Position numbers and translations under genes: made by a program. From positions 1 through 46,845 of the forward strand of contig JAFYSK010000018.1 in NCBI GenBank assembly GCA_017559385.1: 46,845 nt of DNA. Direction: 5' to 3'. Positions 6,932 to 45,861 of the stretch are shown here, piece by piece. The notes beneath the pieces are model-generated. The model was not told where the DNA came from and searched no databases. It worked only from the letters and a program-made list of their open reading frames with translations. The stretch is from Paludibacteraceae bacterium (GTDB lineage: Bacteria > Bacteroidota > Bacteroidia > Bacteroidales > Paludibacteraceae). Each line of letters starts with the position of its first letter. Position 1 is the stretch's first letter.

Positions 6932-9466
6932 ATGAAGAAAATTTTTACACTTTTCATGGCGACAGTGGTGGCAGTATCCATGTTCGCTTTGCCTCAAAAG
7001 AGTATGTCTGCCAAAGATGTTAAGGCCGGCTTTGAGAAATCTTCTGTGGAGAACCCATTGAAGGTAAAATTGGAAAAGAAAAACACTGAAAAACTGACTG
7101 TTCGCGATTTTGTGCCAGCATCGTTGAAAGTAGCACAAACTGCAAATCCGGCTAAAGTTGCTGCTAAAAATGCAGTTGCAACTAGCGAACACGACACTGT
7201 GAAGTTAAGTTTCGAGGAGTTTCAAGCAGGCCCTGATTACTATGAGGACTATGAGGAGTGGTACGTAGCAGTGGGTGATGGTAACTGTGGCTTCCGCTTC
7301 GATTGGTATTCTACCAATTTCGAAGGTACCTTCACCACCGATGACTTTGAGTTTGAGTACTGCTATGGTTGGTACTTGGACGAATGGGATGAGGAAGTGT
7401 ATGTTGAGTACGTAGATATCGAAATGACCACTAGCAACAAAGCTATCGATGACTACACCGACCTTTTGACACTAGATGCAACTATTCTTGGTGACGATGA
7501 CAAAGTATATGTGATATCTGCTACTCATAAGATTCTCAAGCCAAAAGAGACTATTGAGCTCGCTATTGAGACAGGTACCATGACATGGGATGCGGATTGG
7601 GAGTTGGCTACTTTGGATGCTAAAAGCAGCGATATGGAGATCTATATGGAGTGGATCTGCTGGTGGGCAACCAATCCTGTATCTATTTATGATGTGATGG
7701 ACTATACAATCAAGTACAAAGGCGAGACTTTGGAGTTGATTGGTTTAGATATGACTGTTGGCGCCGTTAAGAACGACAAGGGTGTAATCGGTTATGAGAT
7801 TTATATGGAGATGCTCTCTAACGAGCCAATTCAATACAATGTGACTATCTTTGCCCCTATCGAGTCTACAGAGACTGTTGAGATAGAGATCAATAATATG
7901 GTTGTCGACGCAAGCAGTGCCTATGATTGGGGATGGATCTTCTGCGATGGCTACAACGATGAGTGGAAGCTAAATGCTGGTATTGACGCCTATGCGATGA
8001 ACTTTGAGATGGCAGAGGGTACATACAAAGGTCAAGATGAAGTGATGTTCTACCTCACCAACACACAAACTAAATACTTCACCGAGCAGTTGTATGCCGA
8101 GGTAGTTGTAACCAACGACCCTCAATATGGTTGGGTGTTGACCTTCGAGTCACTCTGCACCGACAATAAGACCTATAAGGTGACTATGAAGAAAGAAGTG
8201 CCTGCAACCACAGATACCGTAGCTATCCGCTTCAATAAGTCAGCTAATGCTGCTTATTACCCATGGCTAGACAATGATCTGCTTTTGGCCAATAGCAATG
8301 AGCAATTCTATGCGGGACTTGATGTAGTAGGTGTAGAGATGGGTGGAGAGTTCACAATGGAAGACCTTGATCTTTCATATAGTTTGATCTTCAGCGACTA
8401 TGCAAACCGCGTGATGGTAGATATGGCAGACGTGAAGGGTAAAGTATATCAAGTTGGCGACACTACTTTCATCAAGGCAGAGATAATTGGTTATGACGGC
8501 GTATTATACGACGTTGAACTTTGGCACTGCGTACCTGTTACTACCAAGACTGTTAACGTAGAGATCGTAGCGGACTTTGAGAACAATATCGCAATGGACG
8601 GTTATTATGTGCTCAGCGGATACAATAAGGAAAATACCTTGTATATTTCATTGGCTCCATTTGCAGAGGAGGTAGCAGGTACCTTCGTGAACGATGGTGT
8701 ATTCTCACGTTTTGGAGAGGGTCAATATGACTTCTACTGTGATTATAGCGCTGTGTATAAGAATGTTAACGGCGAGGCAGTTCCATATTCTGTGGAAAAA
8801 TGTACAATGACTGTTACCGAAGATGCAAACGGCGCAATCAAAGCTGTGGCTTCTCTTATCGCGGCAGATGCTGTACAATATGAGGTAACCATGACTACTA
8901 CCTACAATAACCACTTGAATTACGATGCTGAAGAAGGTGCAATTGACCGTACTTTCACTGCAAATGATGAAGTAATCATAGAAAAATATGACGATGGTAG
9001 TGCATACTTTGAGGTGATGGCTGCAGATGGCTCAGACATTTGTTCCCTCTATTTCATTGCTGAGGATTTTGATAAAGATATTACCTTTATGCCTGGTACA
9101 TACGAAATCAACGATAGCGAAGACTATATGACCGTATTAGCTAGTGTTGGTGTAGTTGGTCAAAGCATTTATCCATCCTTCTATGGATTCATGAGTGAGG
9201 ATGGTAGGGGAATTGTTACTCCATTGTACTTCCTTGTTGGCGGTACAGTAGAGGTAGAGAACCGAGATGGCAAACTCTATATCGAGGTGAATGCTGTCAA
9301 CTCATACAATGTGCCTGTACACATTGTGTATGATGGCACAAAGGGATCTACTGGTGTAGAGAATATCAGCACTGCAACCACAGCAACTAAGATGCTTAAT
9401 AATGGACAACTTGTCATTATCCGCGATGACAAGACCTACAACGCACAAGGTGCACAAGTGAAATAA
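6932..9466 (+). CDS. Secreted repeat protein of unknown function (paralogue 2, six modules)
   Basis: This protein of 844 residues has a signal peptide (MKKIFTLFMATVVAVSMFAL) and a basic, Ala/Lys-rich segment to about residue 85. Six beta-rich modules follow, whose opening strands begin near residues 87 (HDTVKLSF), 206 (KETIELAI), 313 (TETVEIEI), 427 (TDTVAIRF), 538 (TKTVNVEI) and about 665 (NDEVIIEK), a step of roughly 107-127 residues. The modules are very acidic and rich in Tyr and Trp (YEDYEEWYVAVGDG, YGWYLDEWDEEVYVEYVD). The C-terminus NGQLVIIRDDKTYNAQGAQVK is almost identical to that of the protein at 10081-12558. I recognise no catalytic motif or named domain. Strong T-x-TV periodicity suggests a beta-sandwich or lipocalin-like fold, which is a guess. 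It is transcribed alone, with its own promoter and terminator. Confidence 0.87.
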   Translation: MKKIFTLFMATVVAVSMFALPQKSMSAKDVKAGFEKSSVENPLKVKLEKKNTEKLTVRDFVPASLKVAQTANPAKVAAKNAVATSEHDTVKLSFEEFQAGPDYYEDYEEWYVAVGDGNCGFRFDWYSTNFEGTFTTDDFEFEYCYGWYLDEWDEEVYVEYVDIEMTTSNKAIDDYTDLLTLDATILGDDDKVYVISATHKILKPKETIELAIETGTMTWDADWELATLDAKSSDMEIYMEWICWWATNPVSIYDVMDYTIKYKGETLELIGLDMTVGAVKNDKGVIGYEIYMEMLSNEPIQYNVTIFAPIESTETVEIEINNMVVDASSAYDWGWIFCDGYNDEWKLNAGIDAYAMNFEMAEGTYKGQDEVMFYLTNTQTKYFTEQLYAEVVVTNDPQYGWVLTFESLCTDNKTYKVTMKKEVPATTDTVAIRFNKSANAAYYPWLDNDLLLANSNEQFYAGLDVVGVEMGGEFTMEDLDLSYSLIFSDYANRVMVDMADVKGKVYQVGDTTFIKAEIIGYDGVLYDVELWHCVPVTTKTVNVEIVADFENNIAMDGYYVLSGYNKENTLYISLAPFAEEVAGTFVNDGVFSRFGEGQYDFYCDYSAVYKNVNGEAVPYSVEKCTMTVTEDANGAIKAVASLIAADAVQYEVTMTTTYNNHLNYDAEEGAIDRTFTANDEVIIEKYDDGSAYFEVMAADGSDICSLYFIAEDFDKDITFMPGTYEINDSEDYMTVLASVGVVGQSIYPSFYGFMSEDGRGIVTPLYFLVGGTVEVENRDGKLYIEVNAVNSYNVPVHIVYDGTKGSTGVENISTATTATKMLNNGQLVIIRDDKTYNAQGAQVK

Positions 9467-9488: not shown

Positions 9489-9510
9489 TATAGGTTATAG
9501 GTTATAGGCG
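9489..9510. repeat. Heptamer TTATAGG repeat (inverted copy at 43748-43776)
   Basis: CTATAGG-TTATAGG-TTATAGG followed by CGAAAGG lies just after the gene end. The reverse complement, CTTTCGCCTATAACCTATAACC and on, occurs at 43744-43776. The period is 7 bp. Confidence 0.7.
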
Positions 9511-9623: not shown

Positions 9624-9767
9624 CCTTCGGTATTCTCCGCCACAAGGGCTCGATAACGCTTCGCTCTTCCTTCGGTATCCCTTCGGTATTCTTTCGGCGA
9701 AGTTTCTATGAAGTTCCTATGAAGTTCCTATGAAGTCCCTATGAAGTTCCTATGCTGATAGGTGGCA
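9624..9767. repeat. Intergenic array of 11-bp units (array A)
   Basis: The spacer downstream of paralogue 2 is built of 11-bp units. CCTTCGGTATT and close variants lie at 9624, 9669 and 9680. From 9702 the units are GTTTCTATGAA, GTTCCTATGAA twice, GTCCCTATGAA and GTTCCTATGCT, ending with GATAGGTGGCA at 9757-9767. One extra base near 9657 breaks the phase once. The part from 9702 onward recurs, inverted, at 34376-34426. It is not coding in any frame that I would support and its role is unknown. Confidence 0.85.
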
Positions 9768-9824
9768 AGTAAGCGGCAAATAAAGGGGGAGTTGTGGGGT
9801 TCCCCTGAACTTCTGAACCAAAAA

Positions 9825-10080: not shown

Positions 10081-12558
10081 ATGAAAAAACTTATTTCTCT
10101 TTTTCTAGTAGCCTTTGTTGCGATGGGCCTAGTGGCTGCGCCTGCTAGACAACTGAAGAAATTAGCAGATGCACCTGTGCAATCTGTTAATCAACAACGT
10201 GCATTACGCCTAATTAACCAAGATGTAACCAAGCGTGCTAATCCTGCCGCAGTGGCAGAGAAAACGTTCAAGAAACAACATGCTTTGGGCATGAAGAAAG
10301 CGGCAGCTGCGGATATTGTGCTCAATGGTGAGGGTTTTCTCGTAGGTCCAGAGTACGAAGCTGCTACCGGTGAGTGGTATATTGCGTTAGAAGCTCAAGG
10401 TTATACTTTCCGCTTGTGTTGGTACGGCGATGAGGATAATTACTGTGGTACTTATACTTTTGATGATATGAGCATGGATTACTCCTGGGGATGGTATCAA
10501 TCAGCAGATATGTTCTACGAGATTTATTTCCAAGATGTGACCATGACTATTTCTGAGAAAGTAGAAGGAAGTCTCAAGCAAATTGTACTAGATGCTACTA
10601 TCTTGGACACCAACGACCGTACCTACAAGGTGCATTCTGTACATAGCGCCTATACTCCTAAGAATACAATAGAGAATGTATTGGATAATAGCACTGTGAC
10701 TATGGACTTTGGATATTATGTGTTGGAGGGTCGCAATGATGACTTGTCTGTGAAATTGGGTGTCATCTCTGACATGATAGAGGGTGAATATACCAAGGCT
10801 AGCTTTGATATGAACCAAACCAAGATTGTTTATAAGGGTAAAGAACAACAGATGCTGCAAGCCAATATGCTAGTAGGCTTGAGCGACTTGGATAATGGTG
10901 CTTTGGGATATAAAGCAGCTTTGCAATTCTATAACCAAGATACCGTATTGCACAAGATATCGATGACTGTGCCATTGCCCGCGGCGAAAGATACGATTAA
11001 GGTAGAGTGCCATAACTTGTTTGTAGATGACTCATTCGCCGATTATGGATTTATGATGGTTGGTGGATCTAATGAGGATTACGATATTTTTGCTATGTAT
11101 GAGGATTTTGCACCAGCAGAAGGTGTGTATGAGGATATTGCATTGACCGTAACAGACAAGAAGACTTGGTTGGATTGCTCATCTATTCGTGGTACATTGA
11201 CTTTGAAAGAAACTGCTGATGGTTGGGAGGCAAATATCGAGGCATATTGCGACGATTATAATTGGTATTCCATTGATATGAATTATGAAGTGCCAGAACC
11301 AACCAAAACAGTGGAAGTGGAGTTTGATGAAAGTGCGTTGGCTAGCTTCCGTGCTGATCAATTGAATATGATTCAACTTATTCAGTATGCAGATGATTAT
11401 GAGGCGTCTATTACCATCTATAATACAGGCTTGGGTGAGTCGTTTGATATGGAGAAAGTGTTGATGGATTATACCGAGTTCTATGATTGGACAGTAGAGT
11501 CTAGTGTAGAAATTGCAGATGTAAAGGGCGTGTTAAACCAACGAGGTGATACCACCGTGATTAATGCAAGTTATATCGGTTTTAATGCTGTACAATATGA
11601 TGTGGAGTTTTGGTATGTTGTACCTACCCCTATTGATACGGTAGAGATTGAGATGCCAGTTAAGTTTACCAATGCGTTGCAGGAAGGTTATTACATATTG
11701 TCTTCTTATACGCCAGATAATTCTATCTTTATCTCGTTGAGTCCTTTGACCGACGGAGAAGTGGGTGGTACCTTTATCAATGATGGTATGTTTGGTAAGT
11801 TTGGTGCTGACGGTGGTCGCTATGACTTCTATAGTGGAAACACCTTTATCTATGTGGAGTCAGAGTGGCAAAACTATACCATCGAGAAAGGTGAGTTGGT
11901 GGTTGAACATGCCACAGATGGCACCATTACCGCAGAGGCTAAGTTTATTGCCCGCAATGGAGTATATTACCACGTGAAGATGACTTCAGAGTACAATGTG
12001 CATCTTGATTTCGATGAGCCAGAAGAGATTATTGACCGTACTTATACTACTGCAGATAATGTGACTATTGATGATCAAACTGCAAACAATGGTTATATCT
12101 ATTTGGCTTTGACAGCTGCCGATGGTTCGGATAGGGCTGCGTTCTTCTTCTTTGTTGAGGAGGCTGATGAGGATATTATTGTACCTGCGGGTGTGTATCC
12201 AATCGATGCTTCTGAGGAGTATGGTACAGTATATGCAAACCCAGGTGTACAAGGTGACGGCGTATGGCCATCCTTCTATGCACGAATGTTAGAGGATGGT
12301 TCACTAGTAACACCTTTGTGGTTGTTAGTGGATGGTACTGTTGAGGTTACAAAGACCGAGGATGGTAATCCTTATCTTGAGGTGAATGCAGTGAACTCCT
12401 ATGGTGTAGAAGTGCATATCGTATACGATGGTACAACTACTGGCGTTGAGAACGTCAATGTAGACGTTGAGGGGCTCCGCAAGCAAATCGTTGATGGCCA
12501 ACTTGTGATCATCCGCGATGGTAAAGCTTACAACGCACAAGGTGCACAGGTGAAGTAA
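10081..12558 (+). CDS. Secreted repeat protein of unknown function (paralogue 3, six modules)
   Basis: This 825-residue protein has a signal peptide (MKKLISLFLVAFVAMGLVAAP), then a basic Gln/Lys/Ala-rich stretch to about residue 78. Six acidic, Tyr/Trp-rich beta modules follow, with opening strands such as KNTIENVL, KDTIKVEC, TKTVEVEF, IDTVEIEM and ADNVTIDD. It aligns along its whole length with the protein at 6932-9466: both have GYY(V/I)LS, GTF(V/I)NDG(V/M)F, PSFY, a short strand ending EVNAVNSY and the final NAQGAQVK. The two look like an old tandem duplication. There is no recognised domain or active site. The tail is a candidate export or anchoring signal, given that PorQ is encoded nearby, but this is inference. 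The gene is monocistronic, with a promoter at 9825 and a terminator at 12621. Confidence 0.87.
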   Translation: MKKLISLFLVAFVAMGLVAAPARQLKKLADAPVQSVNQQRALRLINQDVTKRANPAAVAEKTFKKQHALGMKKAAAADIVLNGEGFLVGPEYEAATGEWYIALEAQGYTFRLCWYGDEDNYCGTYTFDDMSMDYSWGWYQSADMFYEIYFQDVTMTISEKVEGSLKQIVLDATILDTNDRTYKVHSVHSAYTPKNTIENVLDNSTVTMDFGYYVLEGRNDDLSVKLGVISDMIEGEYTKASFDMNQTKIVYKGKEQQMLQANMLVGLSDLDNGALGYKAALQFYNQDTVLHKISMTVPLPAAKDTIKVECHNLFVDDSFADYGFMMVGGSNEDYDIFAMYEDFAPAEGVYEDIALTVTDKKTWLDCSSIRGTLTLKETADGWEANIEAYCDDYNWYSIDMNYEVPEPTKTVEVEFDESALASFRADQLNMIQLIQYADDYEASITIYNTGLGESFDMEKVLMDYTEFYDWTVESSVEIADVKGVLNQRGDTTVINASYIGFNAVQYDVEFWYVVPTPIDTVEIEMPVKFTNALQEGYYILSSYTPDNSIFISLSPLTDGEVGGTFINDGMFGKFGADGGRYDFYSGNTFIYVESEWQNYTIEKGELVVEHATDGTITAEAKFIARNGVYYHVKMTSEYNVHLDFDEPEEIIDRTYTTADNVTIDDQTANNGYIYLALTAADGSDRAAFFFFVEEADEDIIVPAGVYPIDASEEYGTVYANPGVQGDGVWPSFYARMLEDGSLVTPLWLLVDGTVEVTKTEDGNPYLEVNAVNSYGVEVHIVYDGTTTGVENVNVDVEGLRKQIVDGQLVIIRDGKAYNAQGAQVK

Positions 12559-19465: not shown

Positions 19466-19795
19466 TTAACGTGCAAAGAACAACTTGCCGGATGCTACCC
19501 TGCGTTTGTTATTCTCAAAGAATACATAGAAGTAGCATTTGTTGATTGTTGGCAATGTGAAGGTTGTCATAGGTGACAATACATCTACAAGTTGTGTATG
19601 TCCAGCTGTGTTGTTGATAACTACGATATCATTTTGACTAGATGCAGGAACATCAGATAGGAATAGCAATTGTCCGTCTGTGTTATAAACTGCTACTGAG
19701 ATATTCTTGCGAGTAGTTGCAAAAATAATGTCACTAGAACCAGGTACATGCTTCATCAATACATCATATGCGCTAGGCGATTGTGAGGTAGAGAT
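19466..19795 (-). other. Putative T9SS-type C-terminal sorting domain of the giant protein
   Basis: After the last repeat, a segment of about 108 residues opens with a Ser-rich linker. It then has strands ISVAVYNTDGQLLFLSD, ending in CYFYVFFENNKRRVASGKLF and FAR. The VYNxxGQ strand followed by a hydrophobic, Lys/Arg-rich final strand resembles type A sorting domains, but the usual GxYxV is altered to CYFYVFF. The assignment is by pattern only. Confidence 0.55.
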
Positions 19796-22700
19796 GGTAG
19801 ATGACTTGATATGAATAGTATATACTCGCTCAGAACCATCCTCGGCAATGACGTAGATGTAGTAAGGTGCATCCAATGCATAGATACCATATTCAACAGT
19901 TGCACTAGTGTCTTCAGCAACTGCTTGGATGTTAGGTTGTGCATCGGTTACATAGTACACATACTCAAATACATCTGGGTCGAAATCACGAATAAGAACG
20001 TTATTCATGTATATCGCGCTCAAGCGGTTGTTGTCGCTAAGTAGGATAACTTGCTTGAGGGTGTAGACACGTGTACTAACACCATCTGCTGCTACAACTT
20101 GGATGATAAAGTCTGTTCCATTAGGATTTACGCTAACAGTTGCATTTGCATCTTCTGCAATAGCTACGACATCGTCAATAGTCGCAAAGTCTGAGCTGCT
20201 GCTACCGATTGGGTAGTAAATGGTGTAGTCTAGCGTGTCTGCATGGAAATTCTCTATCTCAACACCTTTGACAAGTAGCGATTGTAGACGATTGTTGTCA
20301 TTTAGCGCAACCTCCACAACAACGTTGTATGCTGCAGCAGACTCCTCATCTGGAGCTATTACAGTAAAGATATGTGTCAATTTGTTATCCGCTAGTGTGA
20401 TGGTTTCTACATCTACTGTCTGTCCTTCTTTGCCAATTTGGTAAGTAAACTCAGGCATGCGTGTAGTACCATATGGTAAGATGATGTGGTAATCAAATGA
20501 ATCAGGTTGGAATCCATCGATCAATGCTCCATCTTGGTAAATACCCTCTAGGTATGCGTAAGATGACTTGAGGTATGTGAAATAGATGATGTAGGTAGAT
20601 TGATAACTAGCATCTTCAGCTGTGACAGTAATAATGGCATTACCTGTACTAGTATCAATGTCAACAATTTGCTTATCATCCGCTTTCTCAACGAATATGT
20701 TAGGCATTGACTTACCCTCTGCTACTGTCTCACGGTAGGTGTACTGACTAGGGTTGAATCCATTAAGCGGTGTACCGTCAAGGTAGATATTGAGCAAGTC
20801 GGTATTGGTGGATAATGGCTCGGTGAAATAGAAGTACAAGGTGTATACGCGGCTATGTCCATCTTGTGCAAGCACTTCAACACTTTGCTTCCAACCAATT
20901 TGTGCGCTATTACGTGTGAGAGCCTGTGAACTAGGATTGATAACTTGGTAAACATCACCTTGTTTCCAGCTTACGCTAGGTAGTAAGGTATCACCAGCTG
21001 CCATATACATATGATAATCATTGGTGTATGGATCAAAGCCTTCGAGGGGATCGGCTTGTACATAAATCATCTCCAATGTATCAATGCTGGATAGAGCGAT
21101 CTCGTATTCAACGGTGTAGATATTCTTCTTACCAGAACCTGCTACCACATGAATTTGTGTGGTTTGCTTATTGGCTGTATCTACTACCTTAGTTGCGGTA
21201 ACATATTGCCATTGGTCTGCTGCATCCCATGTCAAAGCAGGAATGTGGTCGGTACCAACAGGTAAAGTGTAAGTGTAATAGAATACATTAGCGTCGAAGC
21301 CCTCAATTAGTTCGCCATCACCATAGATGGCAGCCAAGGTGTCAGCATCAGATGGGTTAGCAATGAAGGTGAGATAGTATTGACCTACAGTGCCATCCTC
21401 GGCAGTGACATAAATAGTATGTTGCATGTCACCGGTGATAGCGTCTACTACAATTTGAGTAGCCTCTTGTGGTTCTGCATATACGTCTGGCATGGTGTTT
21501 TGACCCACTGGCAAGAGGATGTCATACTTGTATTGGTTAGGAACAAACTGGTCGTATTGCTCGCCATCAAGATAAATCATCTTGAGTTGAGTGTTGCTAG
21601 ACATCGGAGCAGTGAAGCGTAATGTGTAAGTATTCTTGGATACTCTATCTGGAGCAGTTACATGAATTTCAACCTTCCAATCGGTGGTAACGATATCTAC
21701 TGTTTGACCTTCTGCATTGAGCAATGCACTGATCTCTGGCAAGTATTGGGTACCTGATGGTAAGTTGATATTATAACGCTGTTGCATAGGAGAGAAGATG
21801 AGCTCATCATTAATGCTTGGCTCAAATTGGTCGAATGGTTTGCCGTCCAATAGGATACCAGCCAATGTAACATCCGATGATGCACCTTCTTTATATACTT
21901 CAATCACATAATCTGAAGTACTAACACCATCTTGTGCAATAACATGCAGTGTGTGTGTGTAGTCATCGTGGCTTTCAATCACGGTTTGGAAGTTATCGTT
22001 AGATGCCCATGTAAGCGTGATTTCATCTTCTGTACTCTTAACAGAATAGAAATGGCGTTGACTCTCAAAGTGTTCGATAGGTTGACCATTCACAGCAATA
22101 CCGGTAAGTGATACGCAGTGGCTAGGTTCTGCTTCGAAACTAAGTTCGTACACGGCATAGTCAGATGCATCTTCTGCTGTAACAATAAGGTTGGTGCTAG
22201 CATTCAAGTCACCATGCTCCACTACTACCTCTTGACGAGGTGAGCCGAGTACATAACTGATGCTAGGGATATTAGGTTCTACCACTTTGTATGCACCTGC
22301 TGGAATAACGATGTGGTAGTTCAAACTATCACCACGGAATCCAGTTAATGGCTTACCATCTAGCAAGATAGATTGCAAGTATGGTAGATTACTCAAGTTA
22401 GGTGCGATAACCAAGGTGTATGGATTGCCCACTGTACCATCTTCTGCTGTTACTACATACGTATAGATAGTACTGTCGCCTTGAGTTGTATATTGTACAT
22501 CTAGGTAACTAGCTTGGTCATTGGCAATTGCATGGATTTGAACTGGCTCATCGGTTTTATAGATGTACTCATATACTTGTTCATTGAATGCCTCATATAA
22601 GGTGCTATCAATATATATAGCCTTGAGGTACGTGTTGGATGATAATTCGTTAGGGTAGTTGATACGATATGCGTGACTATCTGTTCCGAAGACTTGCCAC

Positions 22701-25700
22701 TCCATGTACAAAGGAGTTTGAACGAAGACTACCGAATCACTCTCGTGCATGCGTTTGAATTCTACTAAATCAGGTTGATTCAATGTATACTCGTATGTGC
22801 TGCTGCTAAAGCCTTGCATATCAACACTATTCACTTCGATCATACTCAATTGACCTGTTGTGTTGACAATAGGTTTGTTAAGAGTAATTGTGTAGGTGCC
22901 CTTCGTGCCGTTCTCTGCGGTTACGTGGAGTACACCGTCTTTCATGTCAACAGTTTGACCATCCATTTTCTTAACGAAAGTAATGTCAGGCAATTGATTT
23001 GCCGTAACGGTATATTCCTTTTGTGCAGGATTAAAAGCGATATCCAATCCTTCTACAGTGATATTCTCCAATTCGGTATCTGCAGATAGATCGGTGATAA
23101 AGTGCACAGTGTATGTGGTAGCTTCTCCTAACTCAGGAGTAACAACAATAGTCATTACAGAGTCTGCATAAGAGCTTGTGATAGTTTGCAAACTGCTACC
23201 TGCAACAGGTTGAATATCTGGCAAATGCTTAGTTGTAGATGCTAGATGAATAGTGTATTCAGTCTTAGTAACAGCAAATGCAGCAATAGTGGCGCCATTT
23301 ACTTTAAGATCACCTAATGTGTTTTTGGTGGCCAATGGGCGTTTCACTTGCAATGTGTACTCAGTGCTTGTACCATCCTCTGCGTAGTTGGTAATAGTGG
23401 CATTGCGTACACCATAGCCACCCTCTTTTATCTCATTGCTCCAAATCACTTTTTGCGCTTGGTCGGCTACCTCACCTGTGAATGCGAGAGTTGGAATAAG
23501 GGTGTTTTCGCTATCTGGCAAGGTGTATGAGAATGCATTACCATCCTTGACAGCAACGCTGTCATTAACCTTTAAGCTCGTAAGTGTACTATTATAAGAG
23601 AAACGTAGATAGTCTACATACATCTCAGCCAATGTGTTGAGCGATGTGTTGGTAGTACCAGCTATACTATTGAACGAACAGATGGTGATATTAAGTAGGG
23701 TAGGATCACCTGCTGTTTGGTTTGCTTCGCTGAGGTCGAACATAACCTCTTTGTAATCCGAACGAGTTTCTGAGTCTTTCCACTCAAGTGTCTTAACACC
23801 ATGGGTACCTGTTAGGCTATATTGGATGAGACTATGGTTCTTTACCTTTTGATTGTAGTAGCGGATAGCCACTTGGTCAGGTGTGTTGTGGAAACTGATA
23901 CCGCCTGAAATTCCAAATGACGAACTACCAGCTACACCCCATTTTGCAGTTACATTACCCAGGGTAATAAATCCAGGAATGTTACCGCCACCAGGAGTAC
24001 TATATGGTGTCTCAAGACAAACGGCATCGTTGCCTGATTTATTAACCATGCCATCAGGGTTGAAACTACCGAAACCAGAGTGCTTACCTAGTACATCGGC
24101 AACGGTGTACCAACCTGCTGGTTTGTCTGCAGAGGTGAATGTCTCACATTTTGTCCACTCGGTGAATTCGGTGTTTGGTACTTGATCGTTTTCGTAGTAG
24201 TACCATACATTGTATATATTGGTTCTACCGTTGTGGGTAACTTGTGCTTGCCAATGCTTGGTGGTTTGCATCAAAATGTTGACTTGGGCTCCAGGTGCAG
24301 CTGTGTAGGCTATAACAGGTGAATTGGTCACATTTACAATATATGAGAATCGATTGGCATCAAATCCGTCTATAGTTGCTCCGTTGACTTTGATGTCGGT
24401 GAGCACGGCAGGATCTTGAGTCTCTACTTGTGGAGTAAGGGTATATATAACATCATCTTCGCCTGGACGATTGGACTTGACGGTGATGATGGTAGGCGAT
24501 TGTACACCACCTGGTTGTACCCATACGGTTTGCTCTGTAAAACTCTTAGTGTAGTTCACTGTCATTGTGCGTGTACCATATGGCAATGCAATAGTTTGAC
24601 TGGTTGTTTGTACATCCAAATTAGCTCCAGTTTCAACAATACTCAATGCTTTTAAGAGGTTAGTTTGTGAAGCATAGGTGGGTTGGAAATGCAATTTGTA
24701 AGTACGTTGGGTACCATCCTCTGCAAATACAGTAATCTCTGATGTTTGACCCAATGGGCGAGAGATATACTCAATGGTTTGCTCTGGTTCAGATGCTTTG
24801 TAAAGTACTAGTGGAGCCTTTGTTTCGCCGTATGGAAGTTGGATGGTATAATCCGTTATAGTAGGATCATAAACGATAGTGGCACTCTCATGATCAATCT
24901 CTATATACTCCAATGCTACGTTACTAGATTTAGTAACAGGGAAGTGGATAGAATAATCTTGAGTGGTGGTACCATCTGCTGCAACGACATGAATCTTAGT
25001 TGTTCCATCCACTGAACTGTGGTAGGTGGTAATCACTTGGTCTGGGTGGGCACCAATAGGTTGTACGCATGGAACTACCTTAGTGCGCCATGCCAACTTG
25101 TGAGTATATTCATATGTGTTAGCATTGAAATCAGCGATGCTAACACCTCCAACTTTGATATCTGTTAATAGCGCATTGCTTGACTTGTTGCGAGTATAGA
25201 TAATTCTATATACATTGGTGTTACCACTTTCGGCGGTGACAATCACTTGTTGCTCGGTTTCACTAGTGCTATACACAGCGATATTTTGACCAGGTTTTGC
25301 CTCTGCTTGGATATTAGGCAAAGCGTATCCTGCAGGTAGTGCAACTACATACTCGTATGTAATAGGTTCGAAAGCGATAGCACCATCCATACCTTCCAAT
25401 CGAAGATCAATAAGATTGGCATCGTCTCTCAGTTGCTTTTTTATCTGCAATGTGTATCGCTTGGTGTCGCCACTAGGTGCGGATACCAACAATGAGTATG
25501 TGTCGGCATTGAGCATTCCTGCATACACTACCTGCTCAGCATATTGTTTCTCGTAACCGATATTTGGAATCTCATCGGCAATATCCAATGTGTATGCAAA
25601 GATATTAGATGCAAATCCTGCTAAGTTCTCTCCGTTGATAGTAATGTTGCGTAAGGTGCAGTCCGTATTAGCTTGTACTTGCAAAGTAATCTCGTATTGC

Positions 25701-28700
25701 GCTTTGTGTTCACCTGACACTACATACAAAGTCACTTTGTTACCTTGACGGAACTCTGTCACTTCTTGGGTTGCATCTGCATCATATGTGATTACAGCTT
25801 TACTATTGCCGCATACTACACTATAAGCAAATTCTTGAGGATTGAATCCGCTGATCGCAACTCCATCTACATAAATATTTTTGAGTAGTGCAAAGTTGTT
25901 GTCTAGATTAACGAAGTTGATCGTATATGTGTTAGACGCAGCACCAACAGGTTGAACTACAATCTTAGCTTGACCTGTAGAATAAGGCGCTGTAATGGTG
26001 ACTTGTTGACCTTCCTCCTTATCTACTGTGATCTTTGGACAAGTAGCTTTTTGTAGTGATACAGTGTAGTCAAAGGTGTTCTTGTCAAACTCTACTAGGC
26101 TGTCCCCGTCCAAATAAATCATCTTCAAGAATGCGCTATTTGAACGTTGAATAATAAAGGTGATTGTATATGTTTGCACCTTACCACTTTCTGCGGTCAC
26201 CTTGATGGTCTGTACATTGTTACTGCATACATTCAGTACCTTTTGTGCCTCATCGCCTTTGTCGAATGTTACTGTAGGTATAGTCAGCACACCCATAGGC
26301 AATGTGTCTACATAGTTGAGTACTGTAGGATCAAAGCCTTCCAATGGTTCTCCATCTAGATAAATCATCTTTAGGTTGGCATTATCCGATGTGGCAACTG
26401 AGAAATGTAGTGTATAAGTCTTACTAGCACCAGATTGTGGGCGAACAGTAATCTTGTAATCGCCGTTTATACCACCATCTCTAACGGTAATAGTTTGATA
26501 CTCATCTGCTTGGTCATATGTAATGACTGGCAAAACCTTAGTACCCTGTGGCAATGGACAATTATATTCCAAAATGTTTGGATCAAATCCTTCCAATGGC
26601 TGTCCATCCAGATAAATCATTTTCAATGTTGCATTAGTTGCTTTATAAACACTGAAACTGATTTGATAGATGGTGCTGTTACCATTTTCTGCCGTTACAG
26701 CAATACGGGTAGTACCATTGATTCCTCCGGTAGTAAGTACTACCTTCTGGTACTCATCGCCTTTGTCATATGTGATAGCAGGCAGTTCGGTTGTACCAAT
26801 TGGCAAAGTATATGTGTAGGAGGTTTTTATAGGATCAAATCCTTCTAACGCTACACCTCCAATATAGATCATATTCAAACTAGAAATCTCAGATTTAGCA
26901 GTACTTACCACGATCTTATATTCTGTTTGATCAATTCCATTACCAGCGACAACAGTTACTTTTGTTGTTCCATTCAATCCTCCTTCACTAACAGTTACGG
27001 TTTGAGTGCTTTCGCCTTTCTCGTAGGTGATCGCAGGTAACTCTGTTGTTCCTACTGGTAAATTAACGTAGTATGTGAATTGATTAGGATCAAAATTGGC
27101 AATCAAATTCTCACCCATTTGCAGTTTTTTAAGCAATGAGTATGAAGATGCTTCTAGCTTATAAGTCAACTTATAAGTTTTAGGGGTTTGATTACCAGGG
27201 GTAGTTACGTTGATGATATGCTGACTACCATCCAGGTTCGCTACCGATGTAGGTGCGGTATGGGTGATGGTTTGTTCACCCGCAGGATATGCAGATACCG
27301 CTTCTACAGTTGGGATACTGCTAGTAGAAGTTGGCAGTGATACACGATACAAGGTTTGGTTCGGGCTAAATCCTGCAATTGAGGTGCCATTTACCTTGAT
27401 GTCCTTCAATGTGTTATCAGATAATTGCGCCACCTTAAACTGGATGGTATAAGTAGCCGTGGTTTTCTTATCTGCTGCTGTTACTAGAATTTCAGCTTTG
27501 CCAGTTATACTACTAGCTTGTGTGATGGCTATGGTTTGCTCATCCTCTTGACCTTGTGCTGTTACTTGTGGAATAGCTGTGGTACCATATGGCAATTCCA
27601 TAGTGTAATTATATACCGCTGGCTGGAAATTGTTAATAGCGTTTCCGTTTACATATAGATTGCTGAGTTTAGCATTGGTACTAGCTTCACGGACAAACTT
27701 GATCTTGTATGTCGTCGTACTGCTACCATCCTCTGCCTTTACAGTAATCACCGTTGCTGCACCATCCAAAACACCTGGAGTGATTGTGATTTCGCTAGTG
27801 GTTAGTTCACGACCAGGGAAAGTGGCTGTTCCGCCTTTTGCATTGGTCAACGAACCAGCACCACGATAGGCTTTGATCTCTGGAATAGAACTAGCTTCAC
27901 GACTCATAAAGTAGATCTGCTCCTCACTTGAATTAGGGTCAAAACCTAACCACTCTTTACCTCCGATATATAACTTTTGAATCTTCGAGGAATAAATCAA
28001 CTCTACATCATCTACATACAAGGAGTTACCTTCGTACAAACCGTCGTTAGCACGGAAGTTAGGATAGTTACTTGCAGAGAAGATGATGTTCATCATCGTA
28101 GGAACATCATTGTTGAAATAATAAATTGGTACGCGGATATTGGTCCAGTTTCCGTAGGTCTTGCGCTCGCGCCACATACCTTCAGCGATCTGACTGGCTT
28201 TTTGGTCTGTTCCGCAGGCGTTAGCATCTAGTGCCAAACGAATATCACTCTCCTCGTTGGTTCTGGTTGTGTTTGTACAACCACCACTTTTATTTTGGTA
28301 TTTGCTACCTTTAGCTGTGCCAGACCATGCGTAATAGAGTAGGTAGAAGTCCTCTTTGTCAGTATTGCTTCCAGTACGCTTGATCCAAACTGACATACTA
28401 TCAGGACGATGGGTGAAACTAATACCACCTTCAGTACCTGCAGTAGCACTACCTGTGCTAAGACCCTCTAAGTATGCCCAAGGTTTGCCCAAAGAAAAAT
28501 ATCCAGGGGCTGTTTCGGTAATACCCATAGCTCCGACTTCTTTGTCTTGTACCATCATAGAGTAATTACCTGTGTGTCCTGCCTCTTGGCTCGCGAAGTT
28601 GAATTTGAAACCTACTTGTTCCACATTACTTGCATTCCAATTTGCAGGTTGAATGTTGCCGTCAAATTTCTCGCCGCTCCAATCCTCAAATCCTGGGTTA

Positions 28701-28783
28701 GGAAGCTGTTGAGCAGAGATTGTACTAATCCCTAAAGCAACAAAAAGAGTTAATAAAAGACTTTTGATGTAAATTTTTCTCAT
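19466..28783 (-). CDS. Giant secreted protein with about 30 cadherin-like beta-sandwich repeats
   Basis: This 3105-residue protein has a signal peptide (MRKIYIKSLLLTLFVALGIS, cleavage near SAQ). A jelly-roll-like module follows at about 25-265 (PNPGFEDWSG to YVDDVELIY), resembling the putative carbohydrate-metabolism domain PCMD. Then come about 15 repeats of 75-95 residues at about 266-1532. A second related module (VPNTEFTEW to YVDYLRFSY) lies at about 1533-1731, then about 15 more repeats to about 2996. Repeats follow L-x-x-I-x-(V/L)-(D/N)-G-x-x-(L/I)-x-G-F-(D/N)-P, a LP-x-GT turn and VTAEDG-x-x-x-x-YT, typical of the cadherin-like beta-sandwich family. The last ~105 residues (VYNTDGQLL to the end GKLFFAR) resemble a T9SS C-terminal sorting domain, so surface export through the PorQ-containing system is likely but inferred. 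An adhesive or glycan-binding role fits; no enzyme motif was seen. uvrB follows by 1 nt. Confidence 0.9.
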   Translation of the reverse strand: MRKIYIKSLLLTLFVALGISTISAQQLPNPGFEDWSGEKFDGNIQPANWNASNVEQVGFKFNFASQEAGHTGNYSMMVQDKEVGAMGITETAPGYFSLGKPWAYLEGLSTGSATAGTEGGISFTHRPDSMSVWIKRTGSNTDKEDFYLLYYAWSGTAKGSKYQNKSGGCTNTTRTNEESDIRLALDANACGTDQKASQIAEGMWRERKTYGNWTNIRVPIYYFNNDVPTMMNIIFSASNYPNFRANDGLYEGNSLYVDDVELIYSSKIQKLYIGGKEWLGFDPNSSEEQIYFMSREASSIPEIKAYRGAGSLTNAKGGTATFPGRELTTSEITITPGVLDGAATVITVKAEDGSSTTTYKIKFVREASTNAKLSNLYVNGNAINNFQPAVYNYTMELPYGTTAIPQVTAQGQEDEQTIAITQASSITGKAEILVTAADKKTTATYTIQFKVAQLSDNTLKDIKVNGTSIAGFSPNQTLYRVSLPTSTSSIPTVEAVSAYPAGEQTITHTAPTSVANLDGSQHIINVTTPGNQTPKTYKLTYKLEASSYSLLKKLQMGENLIANFDPNQFTYYVNLPVGTTELPAITYEKGESTQTVTVSEGGLNGTTKVTVVAGNGIDQTEYKIVVSTAKSEISSLNMIYIGGVALEGFDPIKTSYTYTLPIGTTELPAITYDKGDEYQKVVLTTGGINGTTRIAVTAENGNSTIYQISFSVYKATNATLKMIYLDGQPLEGFDPNILEYNCPLPQGTKVLPVITYDQADEYQTITVRDGGINGDYKITVRPQSGASKTYTLHFSVATSDNANLKMIYLDGEPLEGFDPTVLNYVDTLPMGVLTIPTVTFDKGDEAQKVLNVCSNNVQTIKVTAESGKVQTYTITFIIQRSNSAFLKMIYLDGDSLVEFDKNTFDYTVSLQKATCPKITVDKEEGQQVTITAPYSTGQAKIVVQPVGAASNTYTINFVNLDNNFALLKNIYVDGVAISGFNPQEFAYSVVCGNSKAVITYDADATQEVTEFRQGNKVTLYVVSGEHKAQYEITLQVQANTDCTLRNITINGENLAGFASNIFAYTLDIADEIPNIGYEKQYAEQVVYAGMLNADTYSLLVSAPSGDTKRYTLQIKKQLRDDANLIDLRLEGMDGAIAFEPITYEYVVALPAGYALPNIQAEAKPGQNIAVYSTSETEQQVIVTAESGNTNVYRIIYTRNKSSNALLTDIKVGGVSIADFNANTYEYTHKLAWRTKVVPCVQPIGAHPDQVITTYHSSVDGTTKIHVVAADGTTTQDYSIHFPVTKSSNVALEYIEIDHESATIVYDPTITDYTIQLPYGETKAPLVLYKASEPEQTIEYISRPLGQTSEITVFAEDGTQRTYKLHFQPTYASQTNLLKALSIVETGANLDVQTTSQTIALPYGTRTMTVNYTKSFTEQTVWVQPGGVQSPTIITVKSNRPGEDDVIYTLTPQVETQDPAVLTDIKVNGATIDGFDANRFSYIVNVTNSPVIAYTAAPGAQVNILMQTTKHWQAQVTHNGRTNIYNVWYYYENDQVPNTEFTEWTKCETFTSADKPAGWYTVADVLGKHSGFGSFNPDGMVNKSGNDAVCLETPYSTPGGGNIPGFITLGNVTAKWGVAGSSSFGISGGISFHNTPDQVAIRYYNQKVKNHSLIQYSLTGTHGVKTLEWKDSETRSDYKEVMFDLSEANQTAGDPTLLNITICSFNSIAGTTNTSLNTLAEMYVDYLRFSYNSTLTSLKVNDSVAVKDGNAFSYTLPDSENTLIPTLAFTGEVADQAQKVIWSNEIKEGGYGVRNATITNYAEDGTSTEYTLQVKRPLATKNTLGDLKVNGATIAAFAVTKTEYTIHLASTTKHLPDIQPVAGSSLQTITSSYADSVMTIVVTPELGEATTYTVHFITDLSADTELENITVEGLDIAFNPAQKEYTVTANQLPDITFVKKMDGQTVDMKDGVLHVTAENGTKGTYTITLNKPIVNTTGQLSMIEVNSVDMQGFSSSTYEYTLNQPDLVEFKRMHESDSVVFVQTPLYMEWQVFGTDSHAYRINYPNELSSNTYLKAIYIDSTLYEAFNEQVYEYIYKTDEPVQIHAIANDQASYLDVQYTTQGDSTIYTYVVTAEDGTVGNPYTLVIAPNLSNLPYLQSILLDGKPLTGFRGDSLNYHIVIPAGAYKVVEPNIPSISYVLGSPRQEVVVEHGDLNASTNLIVTAEDASDYAVYELSFEAEPSHCVSLTGIAVNGQPIEHFESQRHFYSVKSTEDEITLTWASNDNFQTVIESHDDYTHTLHVIAQDGVSTSDYVIEVYKEGASSDVTLAGILLDGKPFDQFEPSINDELIFSPMQQRYNINLPSGTQYLPEISALLNAEGQTVDIVTTDWKVEIHVTAPDRVSKNTYTLRFTAPMSSNTQLKMIYLDGEQYDQFVPNQYKYDILLPVGQNTMPDVYAEPQEATQIVVDAITGDMQHTIYVTAEDGTVGQYYLTFIANPSDADTLAAIYGDGELIEGFDANVFYYTYTLPVGTDHIPALTWDAADQWQYVTATKVVDTANKQTTQIHVVAGSGKKNIYTVEYEIALSSIDTLEMIYVQADPLEGFDPYTNDYHMYMAAGDTLLPSVSWKQGDVYQVINPSSQALTRNSAQIGWKQSVEVLAQDGHSRVYTLYFYFTEPLSTNTDLLNIYLDGTPLNGFNPSQYTYRETVAEGKSMPNIFVEKADDKQIVDIDTSTGNAIITVTAEDASYQSTYIIYFTYLKSSYAYLEGIYQDGALIDGFQPDSFDYHIILPYGTTRMPEFTYQIGKEGQTVDVETITLADNKLTHIFTVIAPDEESAAAYNVVVEVALNDNNRLQSLLVKGVEIENFHADTLDYTIYYPIGSSSSDFATIDDVVAIAEDANATVSVNPNGTDFIIQVVAADGVSTRVYTLKQVILLSDNNRLSAIYMNNVLIRDFDPDVFEYVYYVTDAQPNIQAVAEDTSATVEYGIYALDAPYYIYVIAEDGSERVYTIHIKSSTISTSQSPSAYDVLMKHVPGSSDIIFATTRKNISVAVYNTDGQLLFLSDVPASSQNDIVVINNTAGHTQLVDVLSPMTTFTLPTINKCYFYVFFENNKRRVASGKLFFAR
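23590..24185 (-). other. Second jelly-roll-like (PCMD-like) module at the centre of the giant protein
   Basis: Residues about 1533-1731 break the repeat series. Like the N-terminal module, it has an opening N-x-x-F-x-x-W, a GGISFHNTPDQVAIRYY strand matching GGISFTHRPDSMSVWIK of the first module, and a closing YVDYLRFSY matching YVDDVELIY. This shows the two modules are related to each other. Confidence 0.75.
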
Positions 28784-34287: not shown

Positions 34288-34375
34288 TGTTTATATAATT
34301 TTATATAAAACTATTCTTCTTTTATCTCACTTCGTTTACGATCTACCCTTTATTTCCCCTCTTTCTTTCCATTAG

Positions 34376-34503
34376 TTTGCCACCTGTCTGCATAGGGACT
34401 TCATAGGGACTTCATAGGGACTTCATCGGAATCTCATCGGAATCTCACCGTAGTTTTACCCTATCAAAACCGTATCATTCCTATATCATTCCTATATCTT
34501 TCT
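34376..34503. repeat. Intergenic array of 11-bp units (array B, inverted relative of array A)
   Basis: From 34394 ten 11-bp units follow in exact phase: AGGGACTTCAT three times, CGGAATCTCAT, CGGAATCTCAC, CGTAGTTTTAC, CCTATCAAAAC, CGTATCATTCC, TATATCATTCC and TATATCTTTCT. The reverse complement of 34376-34426 matches 9702-9771, including the flanking GGTGGCAA. The array fills most of the 395-nt space between the Omp85-like gene and the namZ promoter. No gene is present. Confidence 0.87.
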
Positions 34504-34517
34504 CAATCCTATAAGGG

Positions 34518-34550
34518 CAAAAAAAAGAGTGCTCGCTTTCACGAACACTC
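34518..34550 (-). terminator. Terminator of the acyltransferase-DUF819-Omp85 operon
   Basis: On the minus strand GAGTGTTCG pairs with CGAGCACTC (34527-34550) with one mismatch, and is followed by a run of eight T residues. Confidence 0.88.
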
Positions 34551-34577
34551 TCAACTCTTAACTCTCAACTCTCAACT

Positions 34578-36092
34578 CTAAAAGAGGTATCCCATCTTGA
34601 TGTAGAAGTTTGCCCATTTAGCATTGTCTTGTTTGTTCAACGCCATGGCCCAATCTACTGATAGCACAAAGTTCTCGTTCATTGCTACCTTCAAACCTAC
34701 ACCCGCTGCCATATGAGGCATGTATATGTGAGACTGATCGAAGTTGTTGTTCTCATCCAATGCGAAGTAATCGCCTAGTGGGCGAGGTACTACCGCTTTA
34801 CCAACTAGAGCCAATGCGGTTGACTCTACCACATCCTTCGCATATGCTACCTTAATGGCTGCTTCATCCAGTTTATAGGGTTGAGTTATCACACCCAAAT
34901 CAAAGAATGGTGCTAAGCCGATATAGAAGTGTTGGCGACCGATATCAAACTTAGCCACTTTGGCGCGCAATTCTACATTGGCATATGCAAAACCATTAGC
35001 CAATATTCGGTTACGCATAATACCGCGCAATGAGTTAGCACCACCCAATCCTTCATACATCACGCGTTGGATGAATAGGGTGTTCAGGTATGTGTTCATG
35101 TAGAATGGCGATTTACCTGCGATATTGTTTTGTGTACCAATGCGATACGCAAAGGTTACGCGATCTTTGTATACAGGTACATAGTGGCGGAAATTGAAGT
35201 TGAATTGCAGGTGATTATAGCCCGCATTTGCTTGCATTCCGTACTTTGCATTAAAGGCTGCGGTATAGGTAAAGAATGCATCTGCGTATATACCTCTGGT
35301 TGGACAAGTGCGTTGATCACGACTGTCATAGGTCAAACCGGCACGCAAATAAGGGTGCCAACCACCTTTAGCCTCATTTTCGTCAATGATTCCCCACTTC
35401 ACATATTTCTCATACAGGCCTTCTACATTCTTATTCATCGCCTTTTGTGCATAACGATCTGTATCAGGATCATAGACATTCTTTTTGCCATTGAGCATAT
35501 CAATATCGCATTCGTCGATCATATAACCCAACACACCCACACCGGCATTCCACTTGATGTTCTGCCATATCGTACCCTCAATATCTGCTGCAAAACGGAA
35601 TAGATCTCGTTTGTACTTGTAAAATGCACGCGATTGATAATCAGTCAAAACACCCATCTTCTCAGGGTCTTTCTTCCACTTATGGAAGTCTTGATTGTAG
35701 ATTGACTGATAGCCATTAAAGCCATAGAAGTCGCACATCGCATCGGGCTGATAAGTCGCATCCAATGTCAAGCGATGCTTAGGAATCAAGTACTTACTAT
35801 CATAGTTCACGCGAAAGATACCATAGTTCTTGGTGGTATAAGCCGCTTCTGCATAAATAGAGTGGATGTACTCGGGATATTGCGAACCATCGCCATAATA
35901 GTAGATGTTGGTCAATGCACCACCTTGGAAGCCCAAGTCGGCATCAAACGCAACTGATGGCAATACACCGAAGTTCCAACCCGTCTTAATCTTCCTACCC
36001 AATGAGTCCACTTGTTGCGCTTTCTGTTTCTTTGCTGCTTGCATTGGCAGTGTCAATAAAGCTATAAGGGTTAACAGAATATACTTTTTCAT
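34578..36092 (-). CDS. Omp85/BamA-superfamily outer-membrane protein without POTRA domains
   Basis: This 504-residue protein has a signal peptide (MKKYILLTLIALLTLPMQAA), a short basic linker, and then an outer-membrane beta-barrel with many amphipathic strands. It ends in a typical final strand with terminal aromatic residues (WANFYIKMGYLF). The motif GLGGANSLRGIMRNRI (near residue 346) is the Omp85 signature (GGxxSLRG), followed by AYANVELRAKV. There is no room for POTRA repeats before the barrel, unlike BamA and TamA, so this belongs with the short 'surface antigen' barrels. Its role in transport is unknown. It is the last gene after a DUF819 permease-like gene (29-nt spacer) and an acyltransferase gene. 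Confidence 0.87.
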   Translation of the reverse strand: MKKYILLTLIALLTLPMQAAKKQKAQQVDSLGRKIKTGWNFGVLPSVAFDADLGFQGGALTNIYYYGDGSQYPEYIHSIYAEAAYTTKNYGIFRVNYDSKYLIPKHRLTLDATYQPDAMCDFYGFNGYQSIYNQDFHKWKKDPEKMGVLTDYQSRAFYKYKRDLFRFAADIEGTIWQNIKWNAGVGVLGYMIDECDIDMLNGKKNVYDPDTDRYAQKAMNKNVEGLYEKYVKWGIIDENEAKGGWHPYLRAGLTYDSRDQRTCPTRGIYADAFFTYTAAFNAKYGMQANAGYNHLQFNFNFRHYVPVYKDRVTFAYRIGTQNNIAGKSPFYMNTYLNTLFIQRVMYEGLGGANSLRGIMRNRILANGFAYANVELRAKVAKFDIGRQHFYIGLAPFFDLGVITQPYKLDEAAIKVAYAKDVVESTALALVGKAVVPRPLGDYFALDENNNFDQSHIYMPHMAAGVGLKVAMNENFVLSVDWAMALNKQDNAKWANFYIKMGYLF

Positions 36093-39610: not shown

Positions 39611-39697
39611 CGGAAGGAGGGGGATTCGAACCCCCGGTACGGTTACCCGTACGACAGTTTAGCAAACTGTTGGTTTCAGCCACTCACCCATCCTTCC
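39611..39697 (-). tRNA. tRNA-Ser (anticodon GCU)
   Basis: This is an 87-nt class II tRNA with acceptor arms GGAAGGA (39697-39691) and TCCTTCC (39618-39612) and discriminator G. The D-arm region is GGGTGAGTGGCTGAAA. The anticodon stem-loop is ACAGT-TTGCTAA-ACTGT with anticodon GCT at 39663-39661. A long variable arm (CGTACGGGTAACCGTACG) marks serine, and the T-arm is GGGGGTTCGAATCCCCC. It reads AGC and AGU codons. The 3' CCA is not encoded. Confidence 0.96.
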
Positions 39698-43743: not shown

Positions 43744-43776
43744 TTTCGCCTATAACCTATAACCTATAACCTATAG
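43744..43776. repeat. Heptamer CCTATAA repeat (inverted copy at 9489-9510)
   Basis: CCTATAA three times, then CCTATAG, starting near 43749 and preceded by CTTTCG. It lies in the 3' region of the lipoprotein gene. A further CCTATAACC occurs at 43786. Confidence 0.7.
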
Positions 43777-45784: not shown

Positions 45785-45861
45785 CACGCACTATTCACGC
45801 ACAATAGACGCACAATAAGCGCACAATAAACGCACTATAATCGCACTATTCCTGTTATTCC
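45785..45861. repeat. Intergenic array of 11-bp units (array C)
   Basis: Seven 11-bp units in exact phase: CACGCACTATT, CACGCACAATA, GACGCACAATA, AGCGCACAATA, AACGCACTATA, ATCGCACTATT and CCTGTTATTCC. The core CGCAC(A/T)AT is unrelated to the units of arrays A and B, but the period is the same. It lies between the divergent promoters of the lipoprotein gene and infC. Confidence 0.87.

Follow-up and report, generated by a model that had tools for sequence, protein, structure and literature searches.

The window – the whole 46,845-nucleotide stretch of DNA that was analysed, from a Paludibacteraceae bacterium (the source genome) – contains three arrays of 11-bp units. The first of these, array A, is flanked by two long open reading frames that lie outside the system described here (Table 1). 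Searched with Rfam at gathering thresholds, the whole window yields a tRNA alone (minus strand, 39611-39697). A minus-strand reading frame of 3,105 aa (19466-28783) and three 7-bp tandem repeats (TATAGGT at 9489-9508, ACTCTCA at 34547-34579 and CCTATAA at 43749-43775) are also present.

Table 1. Arrays, array modules and neighbouring reading frames in the window.
Feature	Position	Strand	Basis
ORF, 844 aa, upstream of array A, outside the system	6932..9466	+	ORF list
Array A, upstream module: CCTTCGGTATT-like units, interrupted, closing with a single-base slip	9624..9668	+	lag-11 self-match, spacing
Array A, module U, in phase (CGGTATCCCTT, CGGTATTCTTT, CGGCGAAGTTT)	9669..9698	+	TRF, layout
Array A, core module M, CTATGAAGTYC units	9699..9754	+	TRF, pattern search
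Array A, module D, in phase (GGTGGCAAGTA / AGCGGCAAATA / AAGGGGGAGTT)	9755..9793	+	retained in most aligned copies
ORF, 825 aa, downstream of array A, outside the system	10081..12558	+	ORF list
Array B, second array of the family of array A, order U-M-D	34374..34506	-	TRF; model match 34355-34468
Third 11-bp array, unit ACGCACAATAA, as beside the class II gene on C51	45778..45856	+	TRF, pattern search

Over positions 9624-9767 array A matches itself at a lag of 11 bp in 84 of 133 comparisons (63%), against a mean of 34.3 (sd 5.0) and a maximum of 52 in 5,000 dinucleotide shuffles: the exact 11-bp period described in an earlier note on this DNA is thus borne out. Lags 3 to 30 all stayed at or below 43% in every shuffle. 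TRF reports period 11 at 9669-9697 (2.6 copies) and at 9699-9754 (5.1 copies, 93% match). The single-base slip of the earlier description is also real, CCTTCGG occurring at 9624 and again at 9669, 45 bp (4×11+1) apart. Starting at 9669, the units keep the 11-bp phase without a break as far as approximately 9793, passing through three unit types in the fixed order U-M-D, with consensus CGGTATTCYTT for U, CTATGAAGTYC for M, and GGTGGCAAGTA and AGCGGCAAATA for D. The array therefore lies where it was first placed but does not stop at 9767, the D units being mostly beyond 9624-9767.

The M unit contains short dyads only (GAA-N-TTC, for example), and neither array A nor array B has an inverted repeat of 10 or more at its ends or inside; the third array has one imperfect inverted-repeat pair. 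The earlier view that the array is not coding holds for the CTATGAAGTYC unit, which carries TGA on one strand and TAG on the other, but not for a related stop-free unit, which lies in frame within two genes of another genome (G070, below).

Dispersed arrays with a common period

A two-M-unit pattern, with three mismatches allowed, occurs 32 times in the source genome and not at all when read backwards. Placed side by side and compared by eye, 13 arrays of this genome have M-D order and phase in common, U being more variable. The same is evident further afield: a scan of 84,980 species genomes returned 28 loci, in 26 of which the M and D modules follow in that order and in phase while U varies more (again by eye), and these 26 are from MAGs of Paludibacteraceae or Bacteroidales, 17 of them from the gut of cattle, sheep or roe deer. 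Two Nitrospira loci (L042, L054), with two copies only and no modules, were rejected as chance matches and kept out of the alignment.

A sequence-only model was built from 31 arrays (L027, L032, L037, L038, L042, L046, L047, L053, L054 and L056 were omitted from its alignment). At E 0.1 it finds 27 matches in the source genome, two of them halves of one array. Of 150 genomes searched in the family 7 have matches; in the genus, under strict filters that make the count a lower bound, at least 69 of 178 genomes do, with between 0 and 22 matches per genome (likewise lower bounds). Weaker matches have other body units – CGATGAGGTTC and CAATCAGATTC, and in another genus CTATCTAGTTC – and a period that is still 11. 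Folding the sense strand predicted no consensus RNA structure over the 31 arrays. Two contigs of one MAG (L044 and L053) carry arrays with the same flanks over the stretch compared, reflecting either duplication or an assembly duplicate.

The earlier note had called for a count of period-11 spacers and had named two outcomes as refuting its idea: no excess over shuffled sequence, and absence from relatives. Neither was found in the samples. Spacers with a lag-11 signal number 24 of 168 in the source genome, 17 of 136 in G032, 6 of 122 in G126 and 1 of 212 in G001, against shuffle means of at most 0.1; the stretches of the source genome were picked around arrays, the contigs of G032 and G126 were picked for model matches, and those of G001 were spread over the chromosome. 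Other lags are less frequent: in the source genome lags 7-10 are found in 4-6 spacers each and lag 12 in none, in G032 none is above 2 except lag 22, and in G126 lag 7 is found in 5 spacers. As background, prokaryotic tandem repeats with units up to 11 bp are reported to be generally normal or weakly over-represented (PMC4060949). Each of the three array-bearing genomes (source, G032, G126) holds several unrelated unit families. Since these families and the weaker matches in relatives all keep the step of 11, the common feature of the arrays is the period and not the sequence.

Small proteins encoded beside the arrays

A gene of approximately 119 aa (11 copies, class I) lies before several arrays. 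A protein search of 61 genomes of the genus detected class I homologs in 32, and a profile of 39 class I proteins, run against 200 genomes of the family, has matches in 30 of them, across three genera. The same profile also picks up a distant class II, whose proteins have a TLRGFIIAQL-like C terminus; the class II profile in turn has matches in 16 of the 393 genomes searched in the order, from 11 of 206 genera. A third profile, made from nine long relatives and four short ones, all from other families, extends to 31 of the 395 genomes searched in the phylum, in 23 of 171 genera. Profile comparison with hhalign joins the three sets at 99.1% and 98.6%, and by this measure they form one predicted superfamily. 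Members are approximately 100-120 aa, with longer forms that have an extra C-terminal half bearing a sub-threshold match to Big_6 (Ig; E 0.005).

Family libraries gave only weak, scattered matches (best E ~0.001-0.003, below curated cut-offs where given) and no recognisable DNA-binding family; the searches covered Pfam (classes I and II and two long-form or related proteins), NCBIfam (class I and two others), PHROGs (class I and the third profile) and PADLOC (class I). The best match among PDB sequences had E 0.19. There was no transposase-like match for the superfamily proteins, and one long form had no match in plasmid (tblastn, 72,556 plasmid records) or phage collections. The 5' flanks of paralogous genes are, by eye, unrelated beyond the promoter, and decayed and truncated gene copies are found beside arrays.

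A lag-11 array flanks 99 of the 138 testable superfamily genes (the genes, from draft genomes and MAGs, are related and the counts not independent). All arrays of class I are 3' of the gene (49 of 55 genes, including 11 first met beside arrays), and all those of class II are 5' (28 of 38), with no more than 160 bp between the nearest array and the first Met in 20 of 25; under the third profile, 22 of 45 genes have an array, 17 of them 5' and 5 of them 3'. Markov shuffles of the same flanks reached the threshold in 0 of 6,900 cases. Among other predicted genes (non-overlapping ORFs with a start codon, on stretches most of which were chosen for holding arrays) the count is 104 of 1,396, made up of 32/262, 25/280, 0/300, 14/319 and 33/235 in five genomes; a looser control of all six-frame ORFs of at least 120 aa gave 36/398, 30/443, 0/419, 11/647 and 41/420. 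Among lags 5-24, leaving aside 22, the next after 11 in superfamily flanks is lag 7, in 12, 5 and 6 genes (23/138).

Loci collected by protein search give a similar picture: 28 of 30 class I loci (the query locus included) have a lag-11 array within 300 bp 3', and after re-reading of L273 the 3' array is present in 29 of 29 testable loci, L246 being at a contig edge with 91 bp 3'. The 39 testable members without an array include two tandem gene pairs of the source genome (C15, C20). Of the far members (L381-L403), 7 of 22 have a lag-11 array and 15 do not, lags other than 11 and its double being found in 0-2. Tandem gene pairs with no visible 11-bp array are seen at L368 (G000:C15), L372 (G000:C20) and L369 (G050:C57), and this branch may work differently.

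Units and proteins vary together. With one masked row (L281) left out, distances between proteins and between their units are correlated in class I (Mantel r 0.66, n=49) and class II (r 0.64, n=28), with 0 of 2,000 permutations in each, and weakly in the third, long-form profile (r 0.26, 21 of 2,000 permutations). Restricted to protein distances of at least 0.3 the values are 0.45, 0.57 and 0.26; at 0.5 or more they are 0.09 (239/2,000), 0.51 (0/2,000) and 0.16 (157/2,000). Covariation thus holds over the close and middle range, and further out in class II; among distant pairs it disappears in class I and is weak in the long-form set. Part of it could come from shared ancestry of a gene and its neighbouring array. 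The orientation of the array relative to the gene is reversed in sister loci (L249, L250, L262, L277); these flips, together with the lack of a consensus RNA structure in the sense strand, make a double-stranded site likelier than an RNA.

Many solo arrays, two more in the window among them, carry the unit of a resident gene. The M unit of array A is also the unit of the arrays that lie 3' of class I genes elsewhere in this genome, on contigs C59 and C65. The class II gene on C51 adjoins the unit ACGCACAATAR, which has 31 matches at 8 places in the source genome (reversed control 0), including the flank of the gene itself and, at 45797-45840, the third array of the window. In G032 the unit of the sole detected gene matches 220 times (reversed control 1); G540 has 14 unit matches at four places, one of them gene-linked (control 1), and G405 has 12 at three places, two of them gene-linked (control 1). 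Pattern search of G601, which has superfamily members, found no array of the tested unit. Among genomes with a close class I gene, 5 of 6 contain five or more model matches, vs. 3 of 55 among those without (Fisher p 5e-5, with a cut-off chosen after looking). The sample from the source genome contains 30 period-11 stretches, of which 22 agree with a resident unit in at least 9 of the 11 positions, where 2.7% is expected from random units; of the other eight, array B and one more are model matches blurred by modules, and six fit no known resident unit. The only lag-11 spacer in the G001 sample adjoins a superfamily ORF, and the class I profile finds none in that genome.

Origin and role of the arrays

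Arrays occupy varied positions. Around 50 arrays, predicted ORFs are arranged forward-forward in 10 cases, reverse-reverse in 10, convergently in 7 and divergently in 5 (cases with both flanks and no overlapping ORF). Arrays are also found within genes: in G070 the stop-free unit runs in frame inside ligA (NAD-dependent DNA ligase) and a gltD-like gene, and in G087 one array is in frame inside a YfhO-like gene (assignments from Pfam). The LigA linker from OB fold to zinc finger, compared across the genus in 30 sequences (L098, L135-L164; one of 31 loci without a match), holds different short repeats in each species, always with an open frame; the linker is not alignable and so gave no exact array boundary. 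Orthologous arrays differ in length by whole units. A homolog of the flanking gene lies near an array in the other genome for 5 of 21 arrays of the source genome and 6 of 17 of G138, and 5 of 8 distinct arrays are common to the source genome and its close relative G174, in comparisons whose stretches cover array regions only and in which absence is therefore weak evidence. Several array positions are conserved between species. For array B, G138 offers no clean empty site, the neighbouring sequence being different, and no target duplication was found at arrays. At L043, L046 and L052 the last codons, terminator, array and next promoter are near-identical between species while both flanks diverge.

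Several simple roles were considered and rejected. A replication-polarity signal was rejected on the strand of 22 arrays, 10 of which lie with the local GC skew and 12 against it (the skews are weak), a Rho loading, promoter or terminator element on the balanced ORF orientation and the 7 of 50 arrays between convergent ORFs, and a folded RNA on the absent consensus structure of the sense strand and the negative Rfam result.

The reading we prefer, and hold to be probable on the patterns of sequence described above, is that array A is a lone (solo) copy of a recognition site composed of repeated units, whose cognate superfamily protein has dispersed copies of its site. The earlier note had proposed repeated protein binding with one unit per helical turn; because a gene family has now been found beside the arrays, this is the best reading, while binding itself is what we infer. 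Bent DNA alone would not account for units that track the neighbouring protein. Many array families would belong to one superfamily gene or a few paralogs, the gene keeping an array of its own unit alongside and further copies being scattered around the chromosome. The protein would most likely be a sequence-specific DNA-binding protein, each protomer sitting on one 11-bp unit (about one helical turn) and the protomers aligning cooperatively on one face of the helix. It is from the pairing, the private unit of each gene, the helical-turn step and the indifference to orientation that we infer a protein of an iterated double-stranded site; such a protein would bind its own array, and the product of the resident gene would bind the solo arrays. 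That every protein of a superfamily found across the Bacteroidota has a private 11-bp iteron code, its arrays being maintained and spread by it and several such pairs residing in one genome, in the manner of REPtrons but with an unrelated protein and with iterons that are double-stranded and helically phased, is a tentative extension.

Of two views of the solo arrays, as working chromosomal sites or as a selfish dispersed repeat, we slightly favor the latter. Gene and array may form a mobile or copying unit, the protein helping to copy the array and the solo arrays being non-autonomous derivatives, as in REPtrons: a possibility to be taken seriously, if short of probable. The in-frame arrays within ligA, the gltD-like gene and the YfhO-like gene are consistent with it, as are the balanced gene orientation, the unrelated 5' flanks of paralogs (as judged by eye), the decayed and truncated gene copies, the spread from 0 to 22 model matches over 178 genomes (lower bounds) and the limited sharing with G138. 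Against such an element stand the higher sharing with G174, the positions conserved between species, the absence of terminal inverted repeats (10 or more) from arrays A and B, and the failure to find a target duplication, a clean empty site or a transposase-like match. The fact that several arrays hold position across species would instead suit a chromosomal regulator or nucleoid protein, the solo arrays being architectural sites or parts of a regulon, and the array beside the gene serving self-regulation. Class II arrays, 5' of the gene and mostly close to the first Met, point the same way, as does a site downstream of array A that looks promoter-like by eye; but in class I the array lies 3', some arrays are within genes or between convergent ORFs in a balanced set of orientations, and there is no strand bias relative to local GC skew, and we consider this account rather unlikely.

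Two further explanations appear much weaker. Plain replication slippage, in which 11-bp tandem duplications grow and drift neutrally, was already disfavored: although orthologous arrays do vary by whole units, and repeats of 7-10 bp are also present in spacers (those of 7 bp beside 23 of 138 superfamily genes), slippage would not be expected to produce an identical module order at many unrelated sites, a preference for 11 over 10 or 12, or linkage to one gene superfamily, and we think it improbable. Equally hard to credit is an array that acts as RNA – as a Rho loading site, 3' UTR element or small RNA. Class I arrays do come after the gene, and spaced pyrimidines could suit Rho; orientation flips in sister loci, the 5' position of class II arrays, the lack of a sense-strand consensus fold and an Rfam search of the window that returns a tRNA alone all argue against it.

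Relation to known systems

Among the closest known systems are REPtrons (TnpA-REP / RAYT), in which one gene is associated with a cognate, high-copy repeat and gene and repeat co-evolve (PMC8266576). A gene beside its own repeat, with dispersed copies, is seen here also (source genome, G032, G540 and G405). REPs, however, are palindromes whose single strands are processed by HUH enzymes, whereas the repeat of the present system is an array of 11-bp iterons. Pfam, searched with classes I and II and a further two proteins (long-form or related), gave no HUH Y1 match, and neither did NCBIfam and PHROGs to the extent searched; nor was a REP-like folding palindrome found, 31 arrays giving no sense-strand consensus fold and arrays A and B lacking inverted repeats of at least 10. 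ParR/parC offers a second comparison: repeats and specificity differ between families, and the ParR of R1 needs a minimum of two 11-bp repeats (PMC9426499). A small protein and direct repeats are found in both; here gene and array are linked, unit and protein covary, and the protein may recognise its array. ParR/parC are plasmid centromeres, whereas there are dozens of arrays per genome here and one long form is without a plasmid match; Pfam gave no ribbon-helix-helix match for the superfamily proteins. On the tests made, neither REPtrons nor ParR/parC can claim the array-protein system as a member.

Two repeat families offer further comparisons. BrickBuilt of Porphyromonas gingivalis is an intergenic minisatellite MITE with leader and tail, present in 19 copies (PMC4596501), and is thus likewise an intergenic tandem array in a Bacteroidales genome; it differs in its 23-nt unit and small inverted-repeat ends, and its abstract gives no partner gene. 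TAACTGA heptamer repeats are dispersed, some of them in Bacteroidetes, and a binding protein is suspected (PMC4679880), but their unit is a fixed 7 bp, in the main genome they lie mostly just upstream of start codons, and no linked gene family figures in the abstract. The arrays are not CRISPR-like, their units being head-to-tail without spacers. No paper naming this array-protein system was found in the PMC subset searched, which holds no preprints.

The many arrays beside genes for small proteins suggest a previously unnoticed protein-and-repeat partnership in Bacteroidota. Noncoding bacterial DNA of a kind usually dismissed as simple repeats is now tied to an undescribed gene superfamily, and the reason for the exact 11-bp beat in the spacers of these bacteria becomes directly testable. 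The 99 array-bearing genes are natural protein-unit pairs from which a DNA recognition code might be learned. A minor observation concerns genome assembly. In G032, array units are located in the first ~150 bases of contigs C14, C19, C32, C35, C36 and C47, and for this reason dispersed arrays probably break the assembly.
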